DNA of 39,290 nucleotides from Bacteroidota bacterium. GTDB taxonomy: Bacteria > Bacteroidota > Bacteroidia > UKL13-3. Below, one piece after another: positions 224 to 39,290 of this stretch. The translations under genes and the position numbers were made by a program. Under the pieces are notes generated by a model. It ran no database searches and was not told the DNA's origin. It was given only the letters and a program-made list of their open reading frames with translations. Within the stretch, counting starts at the first letter, position 1; each line of letters starts with the position of its first letter. The DNA is taken from assembly GCA_947457395.1 (NCBI GenBank), contig CANGVA010000019.1:1-39290 (forward strand), in the 5' to 3' direction.

Positions 224-1593
224 GTTATGCACCGTTTTTATTATTCCTTCACGATTTTTACTGTCTGCTGTCTGCCATTTTTGTCCGTCAAGAAAATAAA
301 TAACAATTGATTTGGTATATTGCTTAAGTCAATAGTTAACTGTCCGTTTTGCATACTTTTTTGATTTGACATAATCAAGCGCCCTTGGGTATCAAACACT
401 TTTATTTGCGTTAATTCAAAACCGCTTTGAATAGTTTTAATTGTCACAAAGTTTTTTGTCGGATTAGGATAGAAAGTGAAAAGGTTAGAATTATTATCAA
501 TTTCATCTATTGATAATGGCAGGCTTATATTTTTGATTACCTCACCGGAATCACATTCTGACCACCAGACTTTCTGGGTTATTGTATAATTACCAACTAA
601 AGTATAATTGTGTGTGGCTGTGCTAAAGTCCTGAAAAGGATGTGGCATTATCAACGTTGAATCCCCATCACCCCAATAAATCATTTTTTTATTTATCATG
701 CTTGAAGAAGAATCAATAACTGTTACACTAAGACTGTCAGATTCAATGGAAAAATCGGTATGAAATTGATTTATTTTATAATACCCATGAACGTATGCTG
801 AATCTTCTACTTGACTCCATGCTGTTTGTTGAAGCATATTAGCATCACTAATACTGATTCCTAATGGAGCTGGTGAACCAACCGCAGATTCATTATAAAG
901 TACAGAAAAAAGAACACAAGCATGTAAATATTGACCTTTTAAACCTGGATGATAATCTGTTGGTGAAGCCCACATGCCAGTTATTGCGGGATAATTATTT
1001 ATCACATCTCTGAATGCATGTGCTGTTGGCAAATAAGCGGCTCTCACAGAACGAGCAGTCATCGTATATTTATTTATTATGTTTGCTTGCATAGCTTCGT
1101 AAGTATATACACTTCCCGAATACGTTTCTGGATAACCTGGGGTTGCATACAACAGGATTTTACTGCAATTCGCTTTCGCAATCGAGTCAATGATTCCTAT
1201 CGGTCGGATGATGGGAGAACCAGGGATTACGGGTTGAATATTGCCTGCGCTCTGCTCCTGGACAACGATGTAATCAAAACCTTGCGCCATCAAACTTAGA
1301 GATACAGGATCTGTTACATGGTCAGATAAAAAATACCCTCCCGGAGTATTTTGAGCAGTGATTACTGTCTTTCCGTTTGAACTTGCAAGATTGGTTAATA
1401 AACCAGGTAAGTCTTGCACATAGGTCATAGAATTGCCAATGAATAAAATCCTTAAAGTGTCTTGAGCGTTGGCGGATTTTAAATAACCAAAAAGGACGAG
1501 GCTGGTTAGAATAATTAATCTAGTTCGATATAATGATGATTTTATTTTTATCATTAGATGTGTTGTTTTGTTGTTGTCAAAATGGTGCATAAC
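224..1593 (-). mobile_element. gene cassette 1 (inverted-repeat bounded)
   Basis: The left end GTTATGCACCGTTTT (224-238) is an inverted copy, 14 of 15 positions, of the right end AAAATGGTGCATAAC (1579-1593). The repeat encloses exactly one gene, the SGNH-hydrolase-like T9SS cargo on the minus strand: its stop is 2 bp inside the left repeat and its start 25 bp inside the right one. The right end runs straight into spacer A. The same layout with other repeat sequences recurs for four further cassettes in the window. That the unit is mobile is inferred from structure; no recombinase gene is present. Confidence 0.6.
241..1554 (-). CDS. secreted SGNH/GDSL-hydrolase-like protein with T9SS C-terminal sorting domain
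   Basis: Probable exported esterase/acetylesterase-type enzyme of the SGNH superfamily, 437 aa from the chosen start. After a signal peptide (hydrophobic run ending near SANAQ) comes FIGNSMT, matching block I with its nucleophile Ser, at about residue 42. TDYHPG near residue 200 gives the expected Asp-x-His of block V. Residues 270-350 look like a PKD-type beta domain. The last ~75 residues start FTFYPNPT and end in a basic VKIVKE, typical of the type A T9SS sorting signal, so the protein is probably released to or anchored on the cell surface. An in-frame ATG at 1590 would place 12 polar residues before the signal peptide and overlaps the cassette end, so ATG 1554 is preferred. The substrate cannot be told from sequence. 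It is the only gene of cassette 1. Confidence 0.75.
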   Translation of the reverse strand: MIKIKSSLYRTRLIILTSLVLFGYLKSANAQDTLRILFIGNSMTYVQDLPGLLTNLASSNGKTVITAQNTPGGYFLSDHVTDPVSLSLMAQGFDYIVVQEQSAGNIQPVIPGSPIIRPIGIIDSIAKANCSKILLYATPGYPETYSGSVYTYEAMQANIINKYTMTARSVRAAYLPTAHAFRDVINNYPAITGMWASPTDYHPGLKGQYLHACVLFSVLYNESAVGSPAPLGISISDANMLQQTAWSQVEDSAYVHGYYKINQFHTDFSIESDSLSVTVIDSSSSMINKKMIYWGDGDSTLIMPHPFQDFSTATHNYTLVGNYTITQKVWWSECDSGEVIKNISLPLSIDEIDNNSNLFTFYPNPTKNFVTIKTIQSGFELTQIKVFDTQGRLIMSNQKSMQNGQLTIDLSNIPNQLLFIFLTDKNGRQQTVKIVKE

Positions 1594-1711
1594 GGTTTGC
1601 GGCTACCCGAAGGTGGCGATTTCGAAGCACTTCACTGTCAACCAAGCAGAAACTTTGATAGAAGCACAAAGCCTCATGTAACCACTGAACCGCCAATTTC
1701 TTGTAGGTGCT
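1594..1711. repeat. attC-like cassette spacer A (118 bp)
   Basis: Non-coding spacer between cassettes 1 and 2. It begins GGTTTG directly after TAAC and ends directly before GTTAGC. It shares with spacer C a GTGGCG box 20 nt in (1613-1618) and CACTGAACCGCCA (1683-1695) exactly 16 nt before the end; GTGGCG and CGCCA(C) can pair as an inner stem. A GAAGCAC motif occurs twice inside. The outer arms do not pair well within the spacer, because each belongs to a different cassette. Confidence 0.65.
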
Positions 1712-2436
1712 GTTAGCAGTAGTTATTCTATCTTATTTTTATTTTTTAAGTCTTGAATATTTTTCTTTATCAAATCATAATCAATGCTATTTTTCATTGA
1801 AGTCCATTTCGCTTCAAGTATTTTTATTTCGTTTTCATTTATATAGGGAGCAATTTTTATTACATCATTTCTGAACTCAACATTAGCCGAAGTCACAGAC
1901 TTTGTAATTGCATAGTTTGTGAATAATAAAACCATTAGAAAAAAACTTAAAATATATAGGGAAAGTAATTTGTTGTCTCTTTTTAGTAAGCTCTCATGAA
2001 TTTGTTTAGAATTGTCTTCCAAAGATTCCAATTCTTTTAGAATTTCTTCTTTACTTTTTTCCTCCTCGGTTTCCTTTTTAGCTAATCTGTTCTTAGTCCT
2101 AGCAATATCTTTTAATGTCCTTTCAATATTTTTCTTAAGTTCTTTCTTTCTGCTTCCTATATATGAGATTGAGTAAAATAAAATAATGGAGATTATAATA
2201 ATAAGAAGAAAATTACTCCAGTCGGCAAATGTATTCGGGTCATTTTTTGCAATCGAAGTATAATAGTCATTTGAGAACTTATCACTTATCAAGATAAAAG
2301 TCCGAACAAAAAGGTCACCAAGAAAATTTAATACAGGCTGAACGTAGAAAAGAAATATACCTGTTAGTAACGAAATGATAATTTCTTTCTTATGCTTTTT
2401 AAGTGTTTCCATGCTGTCTATATAATTACTGCTAAC
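1712..2436 (-). mobile_element. gene cassette 2 (inverted-repeat bounded)
   Basis: The left end GTTAGCAGTAGTTAT (1712-1726) is an inverted copy, 14 of 15, of the right end ATAATTACTGCTAAC (2422-2436). The stop codon of the enclosed gene (1723-1725) lies inside the left repeat, and its start at 2412 is only 9 bp from the right repeat. No spacer follows the right end, so this is probably the edge of the left array. Confidence 0.6.
1723..2412 (-). CDS. membrane protein with long cytosolic coiled coil, unknown function
   Basis: Unrecognised 229-aa protein, METLKKHKKE start. Visible parts in order: an N-terminal membrane segment (about 12-35, LLTGIFLFYVQPVLNFLG), a second (about 67-88, LLIIIISIILFYSISYIG), a highly charged helical stretch of about 60 residues rich in Lys/Glu with heptad character (KELKKNIERTLKDIARTK and on), a third membrane segment (LYILSFFLMVLLFTNYA), and a charged C-terminus. 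A longer reading from 2517 would add residues upstream that cross the cassette boundary, so ATG 2412 is chosen. The gene is very AT-rich compared with the core genes, fitting acquired cargo. Membrane-plus-coiled-coil small proteins are common in phage-defence and toxin systems, but nothing here proves such a role. Confidence 0.6.
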   Translation of the reverse strand: METLKKHKKEIIISLLTGIFLFYVQPVLNFLGDLFVRTFILISDKFSNDYYTSIAKNDPNTFADWSNFLLIIIISIILFYSISYIGSRKKELKKNIERTLKDIARTKNRLAKKETEEEKSKEEILKELESLEDNSKQIHESLLKRDNKLLSLYILSFFLMVLLFTNYAITKSVTSANVEFRNDVIKIAPYINENEIKILEAKWTSMKNSIDYDLIKKNIQDLKNKNKIE

Positions 2437-3284: not shown

Positions 3285-3360
3285 GGTGGTCTCGACAGGA
3301 TTCAAACCTGTAACCTTCTGATCCGTAGTCAGATGCTCTATTCAGTTGAGCTACGAAACC
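3284..3360 (-). tRNA. tRNA-Arg (anticodon ACG)
   Basis: Read on the minus strand, the molecule folds as a full cloverleaf: acceptor GGTTTCG/CGAGACC, D-arm GCTC/GAGC, anticodon stem TCTGA/TCAGA with loop CTACGGA (anticodon ACG, window 3324-3326), and T-arm ACAGG-TTTGAAT-CCTGT. The discriminator A is followed by an encoded CCA (3284-3286). Wobble A34 would be edited to inosine to read CGN codons. It is a single gene with its own terminator. Its 3' end faces the accessory block on the left. Confidence 0.95.
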
Positions 3361-35691: not shown

Positions 35692-36525
35692 GTTAGCGTT
35701 CGTTTATTTCTCTCCGGTATAAGATTTAACCATTCTAAAACCTGTTGCATTATCCCTGAATTCCGGTTTTACAAAAAATCTTTCACTCACTTTTCTTTCT
35801 GTTTTCCATGAACTACCTCTTATCACCTTTTCACCTGTTTCTGTCGTTAACAAAGTCCATTCAGCTACATTATCATTCATGTTGTAAAGTCCATATGCAT
35901 TCCTCTTTCCGCTTTTCACTTTTGTAATTATTTTGGTATTTACATGAGTAGAATTTGTTGCAGCATATTCCCATTCAGCTTCTGTTGGTAATCTATTTTC
36001 CGCTACATATGGTATACCTTTCTTTTTGTTTATTTCATTCTCCGTTTTTGTTTTCCAGCAGCAATAAGCAACCGCATTCATGTATGATATGCCAACAACC
36101 GGGTAATCGTCAAACTTCTTATCGGTGAAATAGTTTTTAAAATAGTTATCAGTATCCCATACAGATACGTCAAGAACATTCTCCAGAATTTCACGATAAG
36201 AATAAAAATTTAAGGCATCCTTCTTGTTTTTCGTTTCTTTAAATTTCTTTAAATCCATTATTCCTATGCTGTCATTTGGGTTATCTTTTAATGAATTAAT
36301 GAATGCTCTATACTCTTTATTTGTTACTTCTTCACTCATCCAAAAAGCAGCAATTGAAACAGTCCTCGTTGTTGTATCATTTTTAACAACTAGTGAACCC
36401 ATAGGAACAAAACTCATATTTTTCGGATTCATTCTTTGTGAAAACGAATAAAATGAGATTAGAACAAAAATCACAAATGGGGTTGTAGTTTTCATGGTTT
36501 TATCTATCTTTAAATGAAGGTTAAC
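35692..36525 (-). mobile_element. gene cassette 3 (inverted-repeat bounded)
   Basis: Left end GTTAGCGTTCGTTTA (35692-35706) and right end TAAATGAAGGTTAAC (36511-36525) are inverted copies at 12 of 15 positions. The stop codon (35704-35706) lies at the inner edge of the left repeat. Encloses one minus-strand gene. No spacer of the A/C type exists left of it; spacer B follows on the right. Confidence 0.5.
35704..36495 (-). CDS. FGE/SUMF1-domain protein, GldJ/GldK-like
   Basis: 263 aa from ATG 36495 (MKTTTPFVIFVLISFYSFSQ, a signal peptide). The mature protein is a formylglycine-generating-enzyme-type domain: NMSFVPMGSLVV start, FWMSEEVTNKEYRAFI, YPVVGISYMNAVAYCCWK, RLPTEAEWEYAA, NAYGLYNMNDNVAEWT, VIRGSSW and ATGFRMVKS end. 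The enzyme-type cysteines are not evident at the expected C-terminal positions, so it may be structural, as GldJ/GldK in gliding and T9SS are, rather than catalytic. The open frame continues upstream to 36573, but that part lies in spacer B and is not credible. It is the only gene of cassette 3. Confidence 0.8.
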   Translation of the reverse strand: MKTTTPFVIFVLISFYSFSQRMNPKNMSFVPMGSLVVKNDTTTRTVSIAAFWMSEEVTNKEYRAFINSLKDNPNDSIGIMDLKKFKETKNKKDALNFYSYREILENVLDVSVWDTDNYFKNYFTDKKFDDYPVVGISYMNAVAYCCWKTKTENEINKKKGIPYVAENRLPTEAEWEYAATNSTHVNTKIITKVKSGKRNAYGLYNMNDNVAEWTLLTTETGEKVIRGSSWKTERKVSERFFVKPEFRDNATGFRMVKSYTGEK

Positions 36526-36641
36526 GTTCGCAACCAGCCGCAGTCGCGGACTTGGTGAACGATTTTTCTCCACTAGGAGAAAACGAAGTTAAGAAAAAAA
36601 TAGTATGATTAACACAGAACCAGCGATTGCGCGTGATTGTT
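36526..36641. repeat. attC-like cassette spacer B (116 bp)
   Basis: Same length and layout as spacers A and C but different sequence. Inner stem CGCAGTCGC (36539-36547) with GCGATTGCG (36623-36631), 8 of 9 pairs; central hairpin TTTTCTCC (36564-36571)/GGAGAAAA (36576-36583) with a 4-nt loop. It begins after TTAAC and ends before GTTAGC. Conservation of shape rather than sequence is as seen in integron attC sites. Confidence 0.55.
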
Positions 36642-37465
36642 GTTAGCTGCTGTATTTTCTTATTAGAAAAAATAAATAATAATTTTCAAAATTGTAAAAA
36701 ACACTAATACGAAAATTAATATTGGAATTATTAAACTAAAAAGTGTTTTCCAAATTCTATTAGAGCCTTTTACTCCTTTGAATATTTGAAAAATTGTATA
36801 AAAAGCTAAAACATATCCAATCATATCTATAAATTGGTCTATGGATCTTGAATAATTTGTTTTACTAAGCCAATAATAAATTGGGAATGTCAGAATATGA
36901 AGAATTAGTTTTTGTCCTGCTATAAAGGAATTTATTACTAAATGTTCTATATAATTGAAGCCTTCTTTCTTAAACATTACGTAAGTCCCAATTGAAAAAA
37001 TGGGAATTTGAATTAATGTCACAACAGAATAATGTTGTGAAAACCACTCAGTCAATTTATCAACAGATGTTTTAAACTCGATAAATCCATCACCACTTCC
37101 TTTCATTTCATAATAGTTAGAAAGTAAATTAAGATGAAAGAAATGTGAAAGTAAACTATAAATACCTGCAAGAATTATTACTAATGAAATTGGTTTAAAA
37201 TGATTTACTCTTTTACCTTCTAAAAACTCTCTAATTGTGTTTCCGGGTCTCGTAAATAATTCTTTTGTAGTAAATAATATTCCCTTGTCGAAATGCAGTA
37301 ATCCGTGCTGAATGTCGTGCCATAGATAATGCAAATTAATTTTATGCGTTTTTGAACTTTGCCCACAATTAGAACAAAATTGCCCATTCATTTCAGCATT
37401 ACAGTTTAAGCACTTTGTTGTCATACTTTGTTCTATTATCGTTATGTTGTAATACAGCAGCTAAC
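36642..37465 (-). mobile_element. gene cassette 4 (inverted-repeat bounded)
   Basis: Left end GTTAGCTGCTGTATT (36642-36656) is a perfect inverted copy (15 of 15) of the right end AATACAGCAGCTAAC (37451-37465). It encloses one minus-strand gene, whose stop is 6 bp inside the left repeat and start 26 bp inside the right. Flanked by spacers B and C. Confidence 0.65.
36663..37424 (-). CDS. DUF3667 membrane protein with zinc ribbon
   Basis: 253-aa protein. An N-terminal zinc ribbon CLNCNAEMNGQFCSNCGQ (two CxxC pairs, residues 5-22) is followed by the DUF3667 stretch INLHYLWHDIQHGLLHFDKG, TTKELFTRPGNTIREFLEGK and HFKPISLVIILAGIYSLLSHFF. Then come about four further membrane helices (IPIFSIGTYVMF, FIAGQKLILHILTFPIYYWL, MIGYVLAFYTIF, SLIIPILIFVLVFFTILKIIIYFF). 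Function unknown; the family is common in Bacteroidota. AT-rich, like the other cassette genes. Confidence 0.85.
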   Translation of the reverse strand: MTTKCLNCNAEMNGQFCSNCGQSSKTHKINLHYLWHDIQHGLLHFDKGILFTTKELFTRPGNTIREFLEGKRVNHFKPISLVIILAGIYSLLSHFFHLNLLSNYYEMKGSGDGFIEFKTSVDKLTEWFSQHYSVVTLIQIPIFSIGTYVMFKKEGFNYIEHLVINSFIAGQKLILHILTFPIYYWLSKTNYSRSIDQFIDMIGYVLAFYTIFQIFKGVKGSNRIWKTLFSLIIPILIFVLVFFTILKIIIYFF

Positions 37466-37583
37466 GGTTTGGCGCTTGGCGTTGTGGCGTTTTTATGCAC
37501 CAAACTTCATACGGAAAACCGCACTTCAATTATACGAAAAATTGCCATACGAAGCACTGAACCGCCACTTTTGCCAAACCCAG
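37466..37583. repeat. attC-like cassette spacer C (118 bp)
   Basis: The clearest spacer. With its flanking boxes it folds as GCTAAC/GTTAGC, then a 1-nt versus 4-nt unpaired offset (G / CCAG), then GTTTGGC/GCCAAAC, and further in GTGGCG (37484-37489)/CGCCAC. Two stems separated by an asymmetric bulge are the plan of an integron attC site (R and L boxes). CACTGAACCGCCA (37555-37567) is identical to spacer A and also 16 nt from the end. The stop codon of the neighbouring gene lies in the right-hand GTTAGC box. Confidence 0.7.
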
Positions 37584-37584
37584 G

Positions 37585-38586
37585 TTAGCGGCTGGCATTC
37601 TTCAATGTCCATATTGCTCCGTTTTTTGTAGTCTGTTTTTCTAAATGACTTTTTGCTGTTAAGTTGTCCAAATATTTTTCACTTTCATTTCTTGGCATTC
37701 CTGTTAGTTCAGAAAATTCTTTTGCTGTCAATGAATGATATTTTGAAAATACAGCATTCCAAGTCTTGTCATAGATTGTTTTGGTAGCAGTAGGAAACAA
37801 TTTAAGCAAAGCACTCTCAAATGTGCTGTATGGTTTTGAGCCATAAACCATTTCTTTCTGTCCTGTTGAGTTTGTAAAAAACATAGTTGGAAACCCCCTT
37901 ACGCCTAATTCTCTACCCAATTTTAAATCTTCTTCAAAAAGCTCTTTTGCTTTTCCTTCAAAATCAGTTTTTAGCTTAACAATGTCAAGTCCAACTTTTT
38001 TCCCTGCTAATTCTAAATGTTCCCATTTAGTAATGTTCTTTTTTTGAAGAAAAACCATTTCTCGTATTTCACGGAGAAACAAAATTGCTTTTTCATTGTC
38101 TTGCATTTGTGCTGCTTTAAAAGCAATTGAAGGCGGATATGAGGAATTTAATGGGTCTTCCAACCAGACATTTCCGTCTATTGGCATATCGTAATAAACA
38201 CTTACTTCGTTCCAATGGTGAGCAACATCAGAAGGTTTGCTAATGCCACCACTATTATAACTCCAATTTGGCAACAAGCCACCCATTCTATATTCCACTT
38301 CAATGTTGTTTCCATATTCCAATTTAAGTTTTCGTAATTGTGGCTCAATGCCCCAACAAGAAGAGCAGATTGGGTCGGTGTAATAGATTATTTTTACAGG
38401 TTTCTTGTTTGCTTTTACCAAACTGCTGTCTGCTGAATTTGTTTTGTTAGTTGCTATTTCGCAAATACCACTTTCAGGGTCACACATTAAAGGATTGTTA
38501 TTTCCCATTTTCTTTTTTGTTTGAGATTGACAACTTACCTTGCCAAAAGTGAACATTGTGATTAAAATAAGATAAGTTATTTTCAT
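37585..38586 (-). CDS. DsbA-family thioredoxin-fold lipoprotein with C-terminal winged-helix-like tail
   Basis: 333-aa exported protein: signal (ITYLILITMFTFGKVSC; Cys19 is a probable lipidation site although Lys at -3 is unusual). An N-terminal Cys pair CDPESGIC (C35, C42) precedes the DsbA/FrnE-like domain with active-site CSSC (C74-C77) in YTDPICSSCWGIEPQL. A helical insertion follows, then the cis-Pro motif GVRGFPTMFF near residue 227. The last ~60 residues (LTAKEFSELTGMPRNESEKY...GAIWTLKN) look like a small winged helix. Likely a thiol oxidoreductase at the envelope, or an SpxH-like protein if cytosolic. TAA 37585-37587 overlaps the cassette boundary box. Divergent from the HxlR gene. 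Confidence 0.82.
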   Translation of the reverse strand: MKITYLILITMFTFGKVSCQSQTKKKMGNNNPLMCDPESGICEIATNKTNSADSSLVKANKKPVKIIYYTDPICSSCWGIEPQLRKLKLEYGNNIEVEYRMGGLLPNWSYNSGGISKPSDVAHHWNEVSVYYDMPIDGNVWLEDPLNSSYPPSIAFKAAQMQDNEKAILFLREIREMVFLQKKNITKWEHLELAGKKVGLDIVKLKTDFEGKAKELFEEDLKLGRELGVRGFPTMFFTNSTGQKEMVYGSKPYSTFESALLKLFPTATKTIYDKTWNAVFSKYHSLTAKEFSELTGMPRNESEKYLDNLTAKSHLEKQTTKNGAIWTLKNASR

Positions 38587-38614
38587 TTTTTAAAAGTGTC
38601 TTACACCGATTGTT

Positions 38615-38622
38615 TATCTTTG
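38615..38622 (+). promoter_or_regulatory. -7 box (TATCTTTG) of the HxlR gene
   Basis: Exact TAnnTTTG, 47 bp before the ATG at 38670. The candidate HxlR operator lies immediately downstream. Confidence 0.5.
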
Positions 38623-38627
38623 TGCAA

Positions 38628-38649
38628 AGTTGAGTACTTAAATTCAACT
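38628..38649. promoter_or_regulatory. candidate HxlR operator
   Basis: Dyad AGTTGA (38628-38633) - N10 - TCAACT (38644-38649) in the intergenic region shared by the DsbA-like and HxlR genes, starting 5 bp after the -7 box. The position suits autorepression and control of the divergent gene. Confidence 0.5.
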
Positions 38650-38669
38650 ACGCAATAAGTCAGGAAATT

Positions 38670-38981
38670 ATGACTACTAAAAAAGAAATTATTGATAACG
38701 AAACTTGTCCTGCACAAGGGCTTTTGAAGTCGCTGTCTGGAAAGTGGAAACCTGAAATTTTTCGTTTGGCTGTTGAAGCTCCTTTGCGTTTTAGTAGTTT
38801 GTTGCGTCAAATTGAAGGTTCTAACAAACAAACTTTGTCTGTCGCTTTAAGAGAGTTAGAAGAAGTCGGGCTGTTAGAAAAAGTTGTCATTCAGCAAAAG
38901 CCTTTGCATATAGAATATAATCTGACCGAAAAAGGGAAGTCGTTAATTCCTGTCTTTAAGCAGTTAGAAATTCTTGGGTAG
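38670..38981 (+). CDS. HxlR-family transcriptional regulator
   Basis: 103-aa MarR-like winged-helix protein of the HxlR family: CPAQGLLKSLSGKWKPEIFRL at the start, the recognition helix area RFSSLLRQIEGSNKQTLSVALRELEEVGLL, and the wing VEYNLTEKG-like segment IEYNLTEKGKSL. Cys13 is at the position of the redox-active cysteine of HypR/YodB-type members, so thiol sensing is plausible. ATG 38670 follows AGGAA. It is divergent from a DsbA-like gene, 83 bp apart, suggesting a thiol-stress module. Confidence 0.92.
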   Translation: MTTKKEIIDNETCPAQGLLKSLSGKWKPEIFRLAVEAPLRFSSLLRQIEGSNKQTLSVALRELEEVGLLEKVVIQQKPLHIEYNLTEKGKSLIPVFKQLEILG

Positions 38982-39004
38982 TGTCTGTTATACTTGCCGC
39001 TAAC

Positions 39005-39151
39005 GTTTCGCGTGTTGCCGCAGTTGGCGTCCCGAAAGTTTTCGGGATCGAAGCACAAAACTATCAATACACCATCCCGAAAGCTTTCGGGATTGATGTG
39101 AGGTAGAATGTTTAATTAACCACTTCACCCGCCATTGAGCCAAGCACCCAT
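39005..39151. repeat. attC-like cassette spacer D (about 147 bp, incomplete right end)
   Basis: Starts after GCTAAC with GTTTCGCG. TGGCG (39025-39029) and CCGCCA (39129-39134) match the inner stem of A and C in both distance from the start (21-25) and from the expected end (17 nt). It is longer because the middle carries two copies of a TCCCGAAAG-N-TTTCGGGA palindrome (about 39029-39048 and 39083-39102; the second is a perfect 20-bp palindrome) and the GAAGCAC motif. At the expected GTTAGC end the sequence reads GTAAAAGC instead. Confidence 0.55.
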
Positions 39152-39242
39152 GTAAAAGCAGTAAATTGGTTGCATAAAAATAAATAAAGTTTCACCTGTA
39201 GTCTGAGGAGATAAATCAACAGCTACCAAAACAAATGTGATT
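39152..39242. other. non-coding leader before putative IS110-type gene
   Basis: 91 bp with no gene, beginning exactly where spacer D stops resembling the others. If the following gene is an IS110 transposase, this would be the left end of the element, which in that family can encode a bridge RNA. Nothing in the sequence alone proves it. Confidence 0.25.
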
Positions 39243-39290
39243 ATGACAACACAACTTACTGCAAGTCCAAAGCTATACATTGACGTGGAC
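39243..39290 (+). CDS. partial gene start, possibly IS110-family transposase
   Basis: The open frame reads MTTQLTASPKLYIDVD and runs off the window. The KLYIDVD end resembles the beginning of the RuvC-like DEDD domain of Bacteroidota IS110 transposases, where (Y/F)IGID/IDVD is followed by HK; here only the first acidic residues are visible. Sixteen codons are too few for a firm call; it may be any other protein. Confidence 0.35.
   Translation, partial: MTTQLTASPKLYIDVD

Follow-up and report, generated by a model that had tools for sequence, protein, structure and literature searches.

A probable integron-like cassette system of Bacteroidota with a Xer-like integrase

The window, by which we mean the whole stretch of 39,290 nucleotides that was analysed, is contig C19 of a Bacteroidota genome assembled to 2.54 Mb in 34 contigs, and it carries gene cassettes at both of its ends (Table 1). 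All cassette genes read leftward except that of the HxlR regulator in cassette 3. An earlier note on this DNA had described the three cassettes on the right and overlooked the two on the left.

Table 1. Cassettes, cassette genes, attC-like sites and neighbouring features in the window
Feature	Position	Strand	Remarks
Left-end cassette	224..1593	(-)	ends GTTATGCACCATTTT / GTTATGCACCGTTTT, matching 14/15
Gene of cassette 224..1593	241-1590	(-)	Por secretion C-terminal sorting domain
attC-like site (TAAC...GTTA) separating the two left-end cassettes	1590..1715	(-)	
Left-end cassette	1712..2436	(-)	ends GTTAGCAGTAATTAT / GTTAGCAGTAGTTAT, matching 14/15
Gene of cassette 1712..2436	stop at 1723		leftward-reading
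tRNA gene near the left-end cassettes	3287-3360	(-)	
Cassette 1 (array-distal)	35692..36525	(-)	ends match 12/15; no recognised attC-like site 3'
Gene of cassette 1	35704-36495	(-)	SUMF1/FGE-sulfatase-like
attC-like site A	36522..36645	(-)	divergent member of the family
Cassette 2	36642..37465	(-)	ends match 15/15
Gene of cassette 2	36663-37424	(-)	DUF3667
attC-like site C	37462..37587	(-)	homologues in related genomes (see text)
Cassette 3	37584..39004	(-)	ends match 12/15; usual TG/AA break at positions 10-11
Gene of cassette 3	37585-38586	(-)	DsbA/thioredoxin-like; TAA stop falls inside the TAAC core
Second gene of cassette 3	38670-38981	(+)	HxlR regulator, divergent
attC-like site D, degenerate	39001..39155	(-)	outer GTTA is GTAA
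Loop of site D	39035-39095		palindrome pair CCCGAAAG...CTTTCGGG

The three right-hand cassettes were all found where the earlier note had placed them, with the end matches that it had given, and they came out on top in a blind scan of every GTTA...TAAC pair 400-3000 bp apart on the cassette strand of the window (n = 1,288). Eight pairs had at least 12/15 matches, namely these three cassettes, the two further ones at the left end (14/15 each) and three chance pairs, all of them at 12 matches. The palindromes in the loop of site D resemble the palindrome ATCCCGATATATCGGGAT at another locus (L041:1102-1218).

The two ends of a cassette are private to it. Across 50 cassettes the own ends matched at 8.1 of the 12 positions beyond GTTA, as compared with 4.15 for random pairings (n = 2,450), the comparison on which the earlier note had made its proposal depend, and with 4.07 for arms that flank the same spacer, so that its claim of a match across the gene but not across a single spacer is borne out. 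A second set, of 49 cassettes taken mostly from genomes that had not gone into the site model, gave an arm score of 8.0/9 for own ends vs 3.9/9 for random pairings. That the inverted repeats bounding each gene are the termini of passenger transposons or MITEs can hardly be credited at all: the ends differ from cassette to cassette, as the earlier note had said in setting them apart from a common transposon end, no transposase lies inside the cassettes, neighbouring cassettes are separated by homologous 118-bp spacers, and whole arrays begin at an integrase-linked site.

The match between own ends comprises positions 5-9 and 12-15 and stops sharply, with none from position 16 onward. Position 11 never matches; all 49 cassettes have an A there on the gene-side start, which gives a fixed A-versus-G break, and a single bulged base is a frequent variant of the ends. 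In a canonical Vibrio integron used as a control (49 cassettes) the own-end match was high up to position 9, faded over positions 10-12 and was at background at position 13. This control ruled out our expectation of a 7-nt match in canonical arrays, and it makes the 6-7 bp over which integrons were said in the earlier note to co-vary an underestimate. The extended end of about 15 bp proposed there therefore stands in part: the 15-nt arm is real and differs from the canonical one, but the contrast is with about 9-12 nt, and the extension consists of a second block, positions 12-15, past the invariant break at position 11. Arrays of this phylum that adjoin a canonical IntI also lacked the second block, as far as could be seen in a rough check with a 7-mer-only chain detector, which is noisy (false pairs, both strands).

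The spacers form a family of sites. A first pattern allowing a spacer of 80-110 nt gave no matches because the real spacer has 118 nt. The search with site C across relatives, which the earlier note had suggested, found homologues in 41 of the 58 related genomes, and an iterated profile found 111 sites; one relative (G016) has an array of eight cassettes, each with private ends matching at 13-15 of 16 positions. The sites share a layout with a fixed TAAC/GTTA core, an asymmetric unpaired stretch, an inner stem and a variable loop, and in the consensus hairpin from 46 aligned sites 17 of the 22 pairs show compensatory changes on both sides. No family matching these sites was found in Rfam.

For 35 cassettes the joint of an excised circle (own end, spacer and own start) was folded in silico. 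On the gene-bottom strand the mean was −30.4 kcal/mol, as compared with −22.8 kcal/mol for the site as assembled and −22.6 kcal/mol for the site with random ends, and the joint folded better than either in 35/35 cases. The bottom strand folded better than the top strand in 29/35. On the top strand the A-versus-G break leaves an A-C mismatch; the bottom strand has a T-G wobble there instead, so that a strand asymmetry is built in. In canonical integrons it is the bottom strand to which imperfections of the palindrome direct recombination (PMC8946536). An excised circle whose joint folds as a single strand, as the earlier note had envisaged, is thus supported as the best reading of these sequences by the folding of the joint, by the covariation of the inner stem and by the occurrence of whole units in more than one genome.

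These common units consist of a gene with its 3' spacer. One of them, 96% identical between two genomes, lies in the middle of the array in one (G016) and first at the attI-like site in the other (G003), with TAAC as the exact limit of homology on either side. A second unit is 91% identical between genomes of different families, with the homology limited to the unit. The surrounding contexts of the shared units differ, and in a congener (G001) a different cassette site lies behind the same peptidase gene.

At the head of the arrays lies a gene for a tyrosine recombinase, co-directional with the cassette genes. Neither this enzyme, with its non-IntI character, nor its attI-like site figures in the earlier note. 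In the second set 20 arrays bear an integrase, and in all of them the sites have one orientation and lie on the 3' side of the integrase gene; in Flavobacterium enshiense an extra site lies on the opposite side. Systems of this kind are present in cultured isolates, namely in Flavobacterium aciduliphilum and, as complete systems, in Algoriphagus ornithinivorans DSM 15282 and F. enshiense DK69. In most loci an attI-like sequence TATAA-NNN-A|GTTA, often preceded by inverted and direct repeats, is found 90-105 bp past the integrase stop, and the first cassette begins at its GTTA. The end match of this first cassette is 8-9/9 in the 12 loci with a usable attI, and at control AGTTA sequences a score of 8 was reached in 5/208.

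In the genome of the window the integrase gene is on contig C14, which terminates at ...AAGCTA|GTTA. The array in the window and C14 are not joined in the assembly; the integrase gene would lie to the right of position 39290. The contig ends were examined for a link between the two and none was found, with C14 being compatible with one. Of the 52 contigs with the integrase, six break off at the attI core (G000:C14 from the window's own genome, L058, L075, L076, L084 and L146), which suggests that the first cassette varies within the population.

Related integrases were also met elsewhere. Two Chryseobacterium plasmids, L208 (NZ_CP041688.1) and L209 (NZ_CP094530.1), carry an integrase of 62% identity with the attI-like sequence TATAAACAAGTT, and the regions behind it contain IS elements and a group II intron. 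Metagenome-assembled genomes binned as Spirochaetota (L136) and Firmicutes (L137) have related integrases with an attI-like site, and there the end match of the first cassette extends to as much as 20 nt and shows the A/G break as well. In one genome the integrase is split into two frames beside an otherwise intact array (L091, G003:C27, 4080-4972), and stops within the integrase were seen in several others.

The recombinase at the head of the arrays is, to judge from its sequence, a Xer/XerA-like enzyme and not an IntI. It aligns to the IntI model TIGR02249 on either side of a gap, with bit scores of 203-223 vs 471-523 for IntI (cut-off 265). The conserved motifs are 64-65 amino acids apart vs 106 in true IntI; the insert of about 41 residues that makes up the I2 region of IntI is missing, and residues 189-245 of 2A3V have no counterpart. 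The maximum-likelihood tree places IntI on a branch of its own (100/99) that includes none of the Bacteroidota proteins, and the Bacteroidota integrases group together (94/94) near XerA-like relatives. Among solved structures XerA recombinases come closest in both sequence and fold, and the structure nearest to the predicted one (pLDDT 85) is likewise XerA. This matters because the I2 helix has been stated to be necessary for cassette capture, to be unknown in other proteins and to be the innovation that created integrons (PMC7790495), and because the additional domain of IntI is treated as a defining feature of integrons (PMC9668308).

Many of the integrases have in addition an N-terminal domain of about 65 residues (residues 1-64 in L105), which is well predicted (pLDDT 87) and may be HARP-like. 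The Pfam family HARP is recognised in two of the 18 members (best E 5e-7), and the top match in Foldseek is 4o66, the HARP domain of SMARCAL1, which is weak (E 0.5). With VIA-align 4o66 was not among the matches listed, and XPB was among the weak structural matches; a sequence search of the PDB with the domain yielded nothing real. HARP and XPB-DRD are structure-specific DNA-binding domains, but in the Bacteroidota proteins the domain is fused to a tyrosine recombinase. Since integrases such as that of L046 lack the domain and nevertheless have an intact array, it cannot be essential.

How sites and enzyme are distributed was surveyed in 247 genomes drawn across the phylum. Sites were found in 128, the integrase in 82 and both in 73 (odds ratio 16, p 9e-18, in a count that treats genomes as independent, though relatives are not). 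Within the class of the window 36 of the 37 genomes with the integrase have sites. Outside it, sites are present in 20/24 genomes having the I2-less integrase alone, in 13/50 having canonical IntI alone and in 30/91 having neither, and 21 genomes contain both enzymes. The sites therefore follow the I2-less enzyme and not canonical IntI, and splitting the table by enzyme in this way led us to reject canonical IntI as the source of the phylum-wide co-occurrence.

The same figures bear on the idea that the sites belong to ordinary attC cassettes moved by a classical IntI encoded elsewhere in the genome or in other cells. The attC-like architecture, the GTTA/TAAC core, the private ends and the bottom-strand bias would all fit such a canonical integron. 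We nevertheless consider it quite improbable, because TIGR02249 is above its cut-off in 0 of the 58 relatives and in just 1 of the 61 genomes of the class, that one being without sites, because genomes with canonical IntI alone have sites no more often than those with neither enzyme, and because canonical arrays have neither the second match block nor the fixed break at position 11.

Of the 165 genomes in which no integrase was detected, 55 do have sites, and these sites must be put down to a different enzyme, to a diverged integrase or to orphan arrays. These 55 genomes could be taken to mean that the host XerCD works on the sites, as it does on the pdif modules of Acinetobacter plasmids, with the linked integrase being incidental. 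The recombinase family is indeed Xer-like, and a Xer half-site has 11 nt, which is also the length of the Bacteroidota arm beside the core. Yet a dif site is a single duplex of 28 bp, whereas the Bacteroidota sites are multiple, about 118 bp long, hairpin-forming and private-ended, and they stand in cassette arrays with their own attI-like site linked to the integrase, which sets them apart from Xer/dif systems including pdif. With private hairpins conserved in structure, a dedicated attI-like site behind the integrase gene, a consistent orientation and a strong co-occurrence, action of XerCD appears very improbable.

We regard it as highly probable that the region in the window is part of an integron-like cassette-capture system of Bacteroidota with a non-IntI integrase. 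For this speak, at the level of sequence, the arrays, the private ends, the covariation, the attI-like site, its linkage to the integrase, the orientation of the sites, the sharing of whole cassettes and the absence of the insert. A cassette consists of a gene and its 3' spacer, the spacer being an attC-like site. Excision would join the two private ends on either side of the spacer, after which the bottom strand (gene sense) could fold into one long hairpin, the outer arm of which is formed by the private end, that is, by the 4-nt core and 11 nt of arm that include a G-T wobble or a bulge at positions 10-11. We infer that the integrase binds the inner and outer arms of this bottom-strand fold in an excised or single-stranded cassette and recombines the hairpin with the attI-like site, with the crossover inside GTTA, whereby new cassettes would enter beside the integrase. 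An enzyme without I2 may need the full double-stranded 11-nt arm; this longer outer arm, often together with the HARP-like domain, would supply the grip on the hairpin that I2 gives to IntI.

That the I2-less integrase instead uses the sites as plain duplex DNA, the palindromes having another role, is suggested by the missing I2 segment and by the XerA recombinases, its closest solved relatives, which act on duplex sites. We hold this double-strand recombination to be unlikely since the private arms match solely across a cassette, since the inner stem covaries without being conserved in sequence and since a strand asymmetry is built in, with A at position 11 in every one of the 49 cassettes. 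Private arms, covarying stem and strand asymmetry look like signs that a structure on one strand is recognised. On balance we favour, with less assurance than for the system as such, single-strand capture without an I2 helix by a Xer-like recombinase with an 11-bp private arm and often a HARP-like domain, which would make this a separate or ancestral-type integron.

With the IntI/attI/attC integrons of the Vibrio type the system shares the cassette arrays, in which each gene has a palindromic attC-type site at its 3' end, the private matching ends, the GTTA/TAAC core, the unpaired central loop and the bottom-strand bias (in silico), an attI with repeats beside the integrase as the entry point of cassettes, and the sharing of gene and site as one unit. 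It differs from them in that the recombinase lacks the I2 insert, falls outside the IntI clade and scores below the family cut-off, in that the integrase gene is co-directional with the cassettes and abuts attI with its 3' end, in that the private arm extends over 15 nt and is always broken at position 11, as compared with about 9-12 uninterrupted nucleotides, and in that many members have an extra N-terminal domain. The additional domain of IntI was looked for in this recombinase and not found, and we therefore do not class the system as a classical integron, although it would work like one.

Surveys relying on IntI-type criteria reported almost no integrons in Bacteroidetes; IntegronFinder 2.0 gave a single complete one for Bacteroidetes proper, from Salinibacter (PMC9024848). 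In the open-access full-text papers that were searched we found no description of the present system. Of the phylum's sampled genomes, about one half has cassette sites and one third has an integrase lacking I2. If the mechanism is as outlined here, a large gene-exchange system would have been overlooked, one whose cassettes resemble the ones by which antibiotic resistance spreads elsewhere among bacteria. Should capture without I2 prove true, it would mean either that integrons had an independent origin in this group or that a stage before the acquisition of I2 has survived, and both the need of I2 for hairpin recombination and the origin of integrons could then be tested by comparing two natural solutions.
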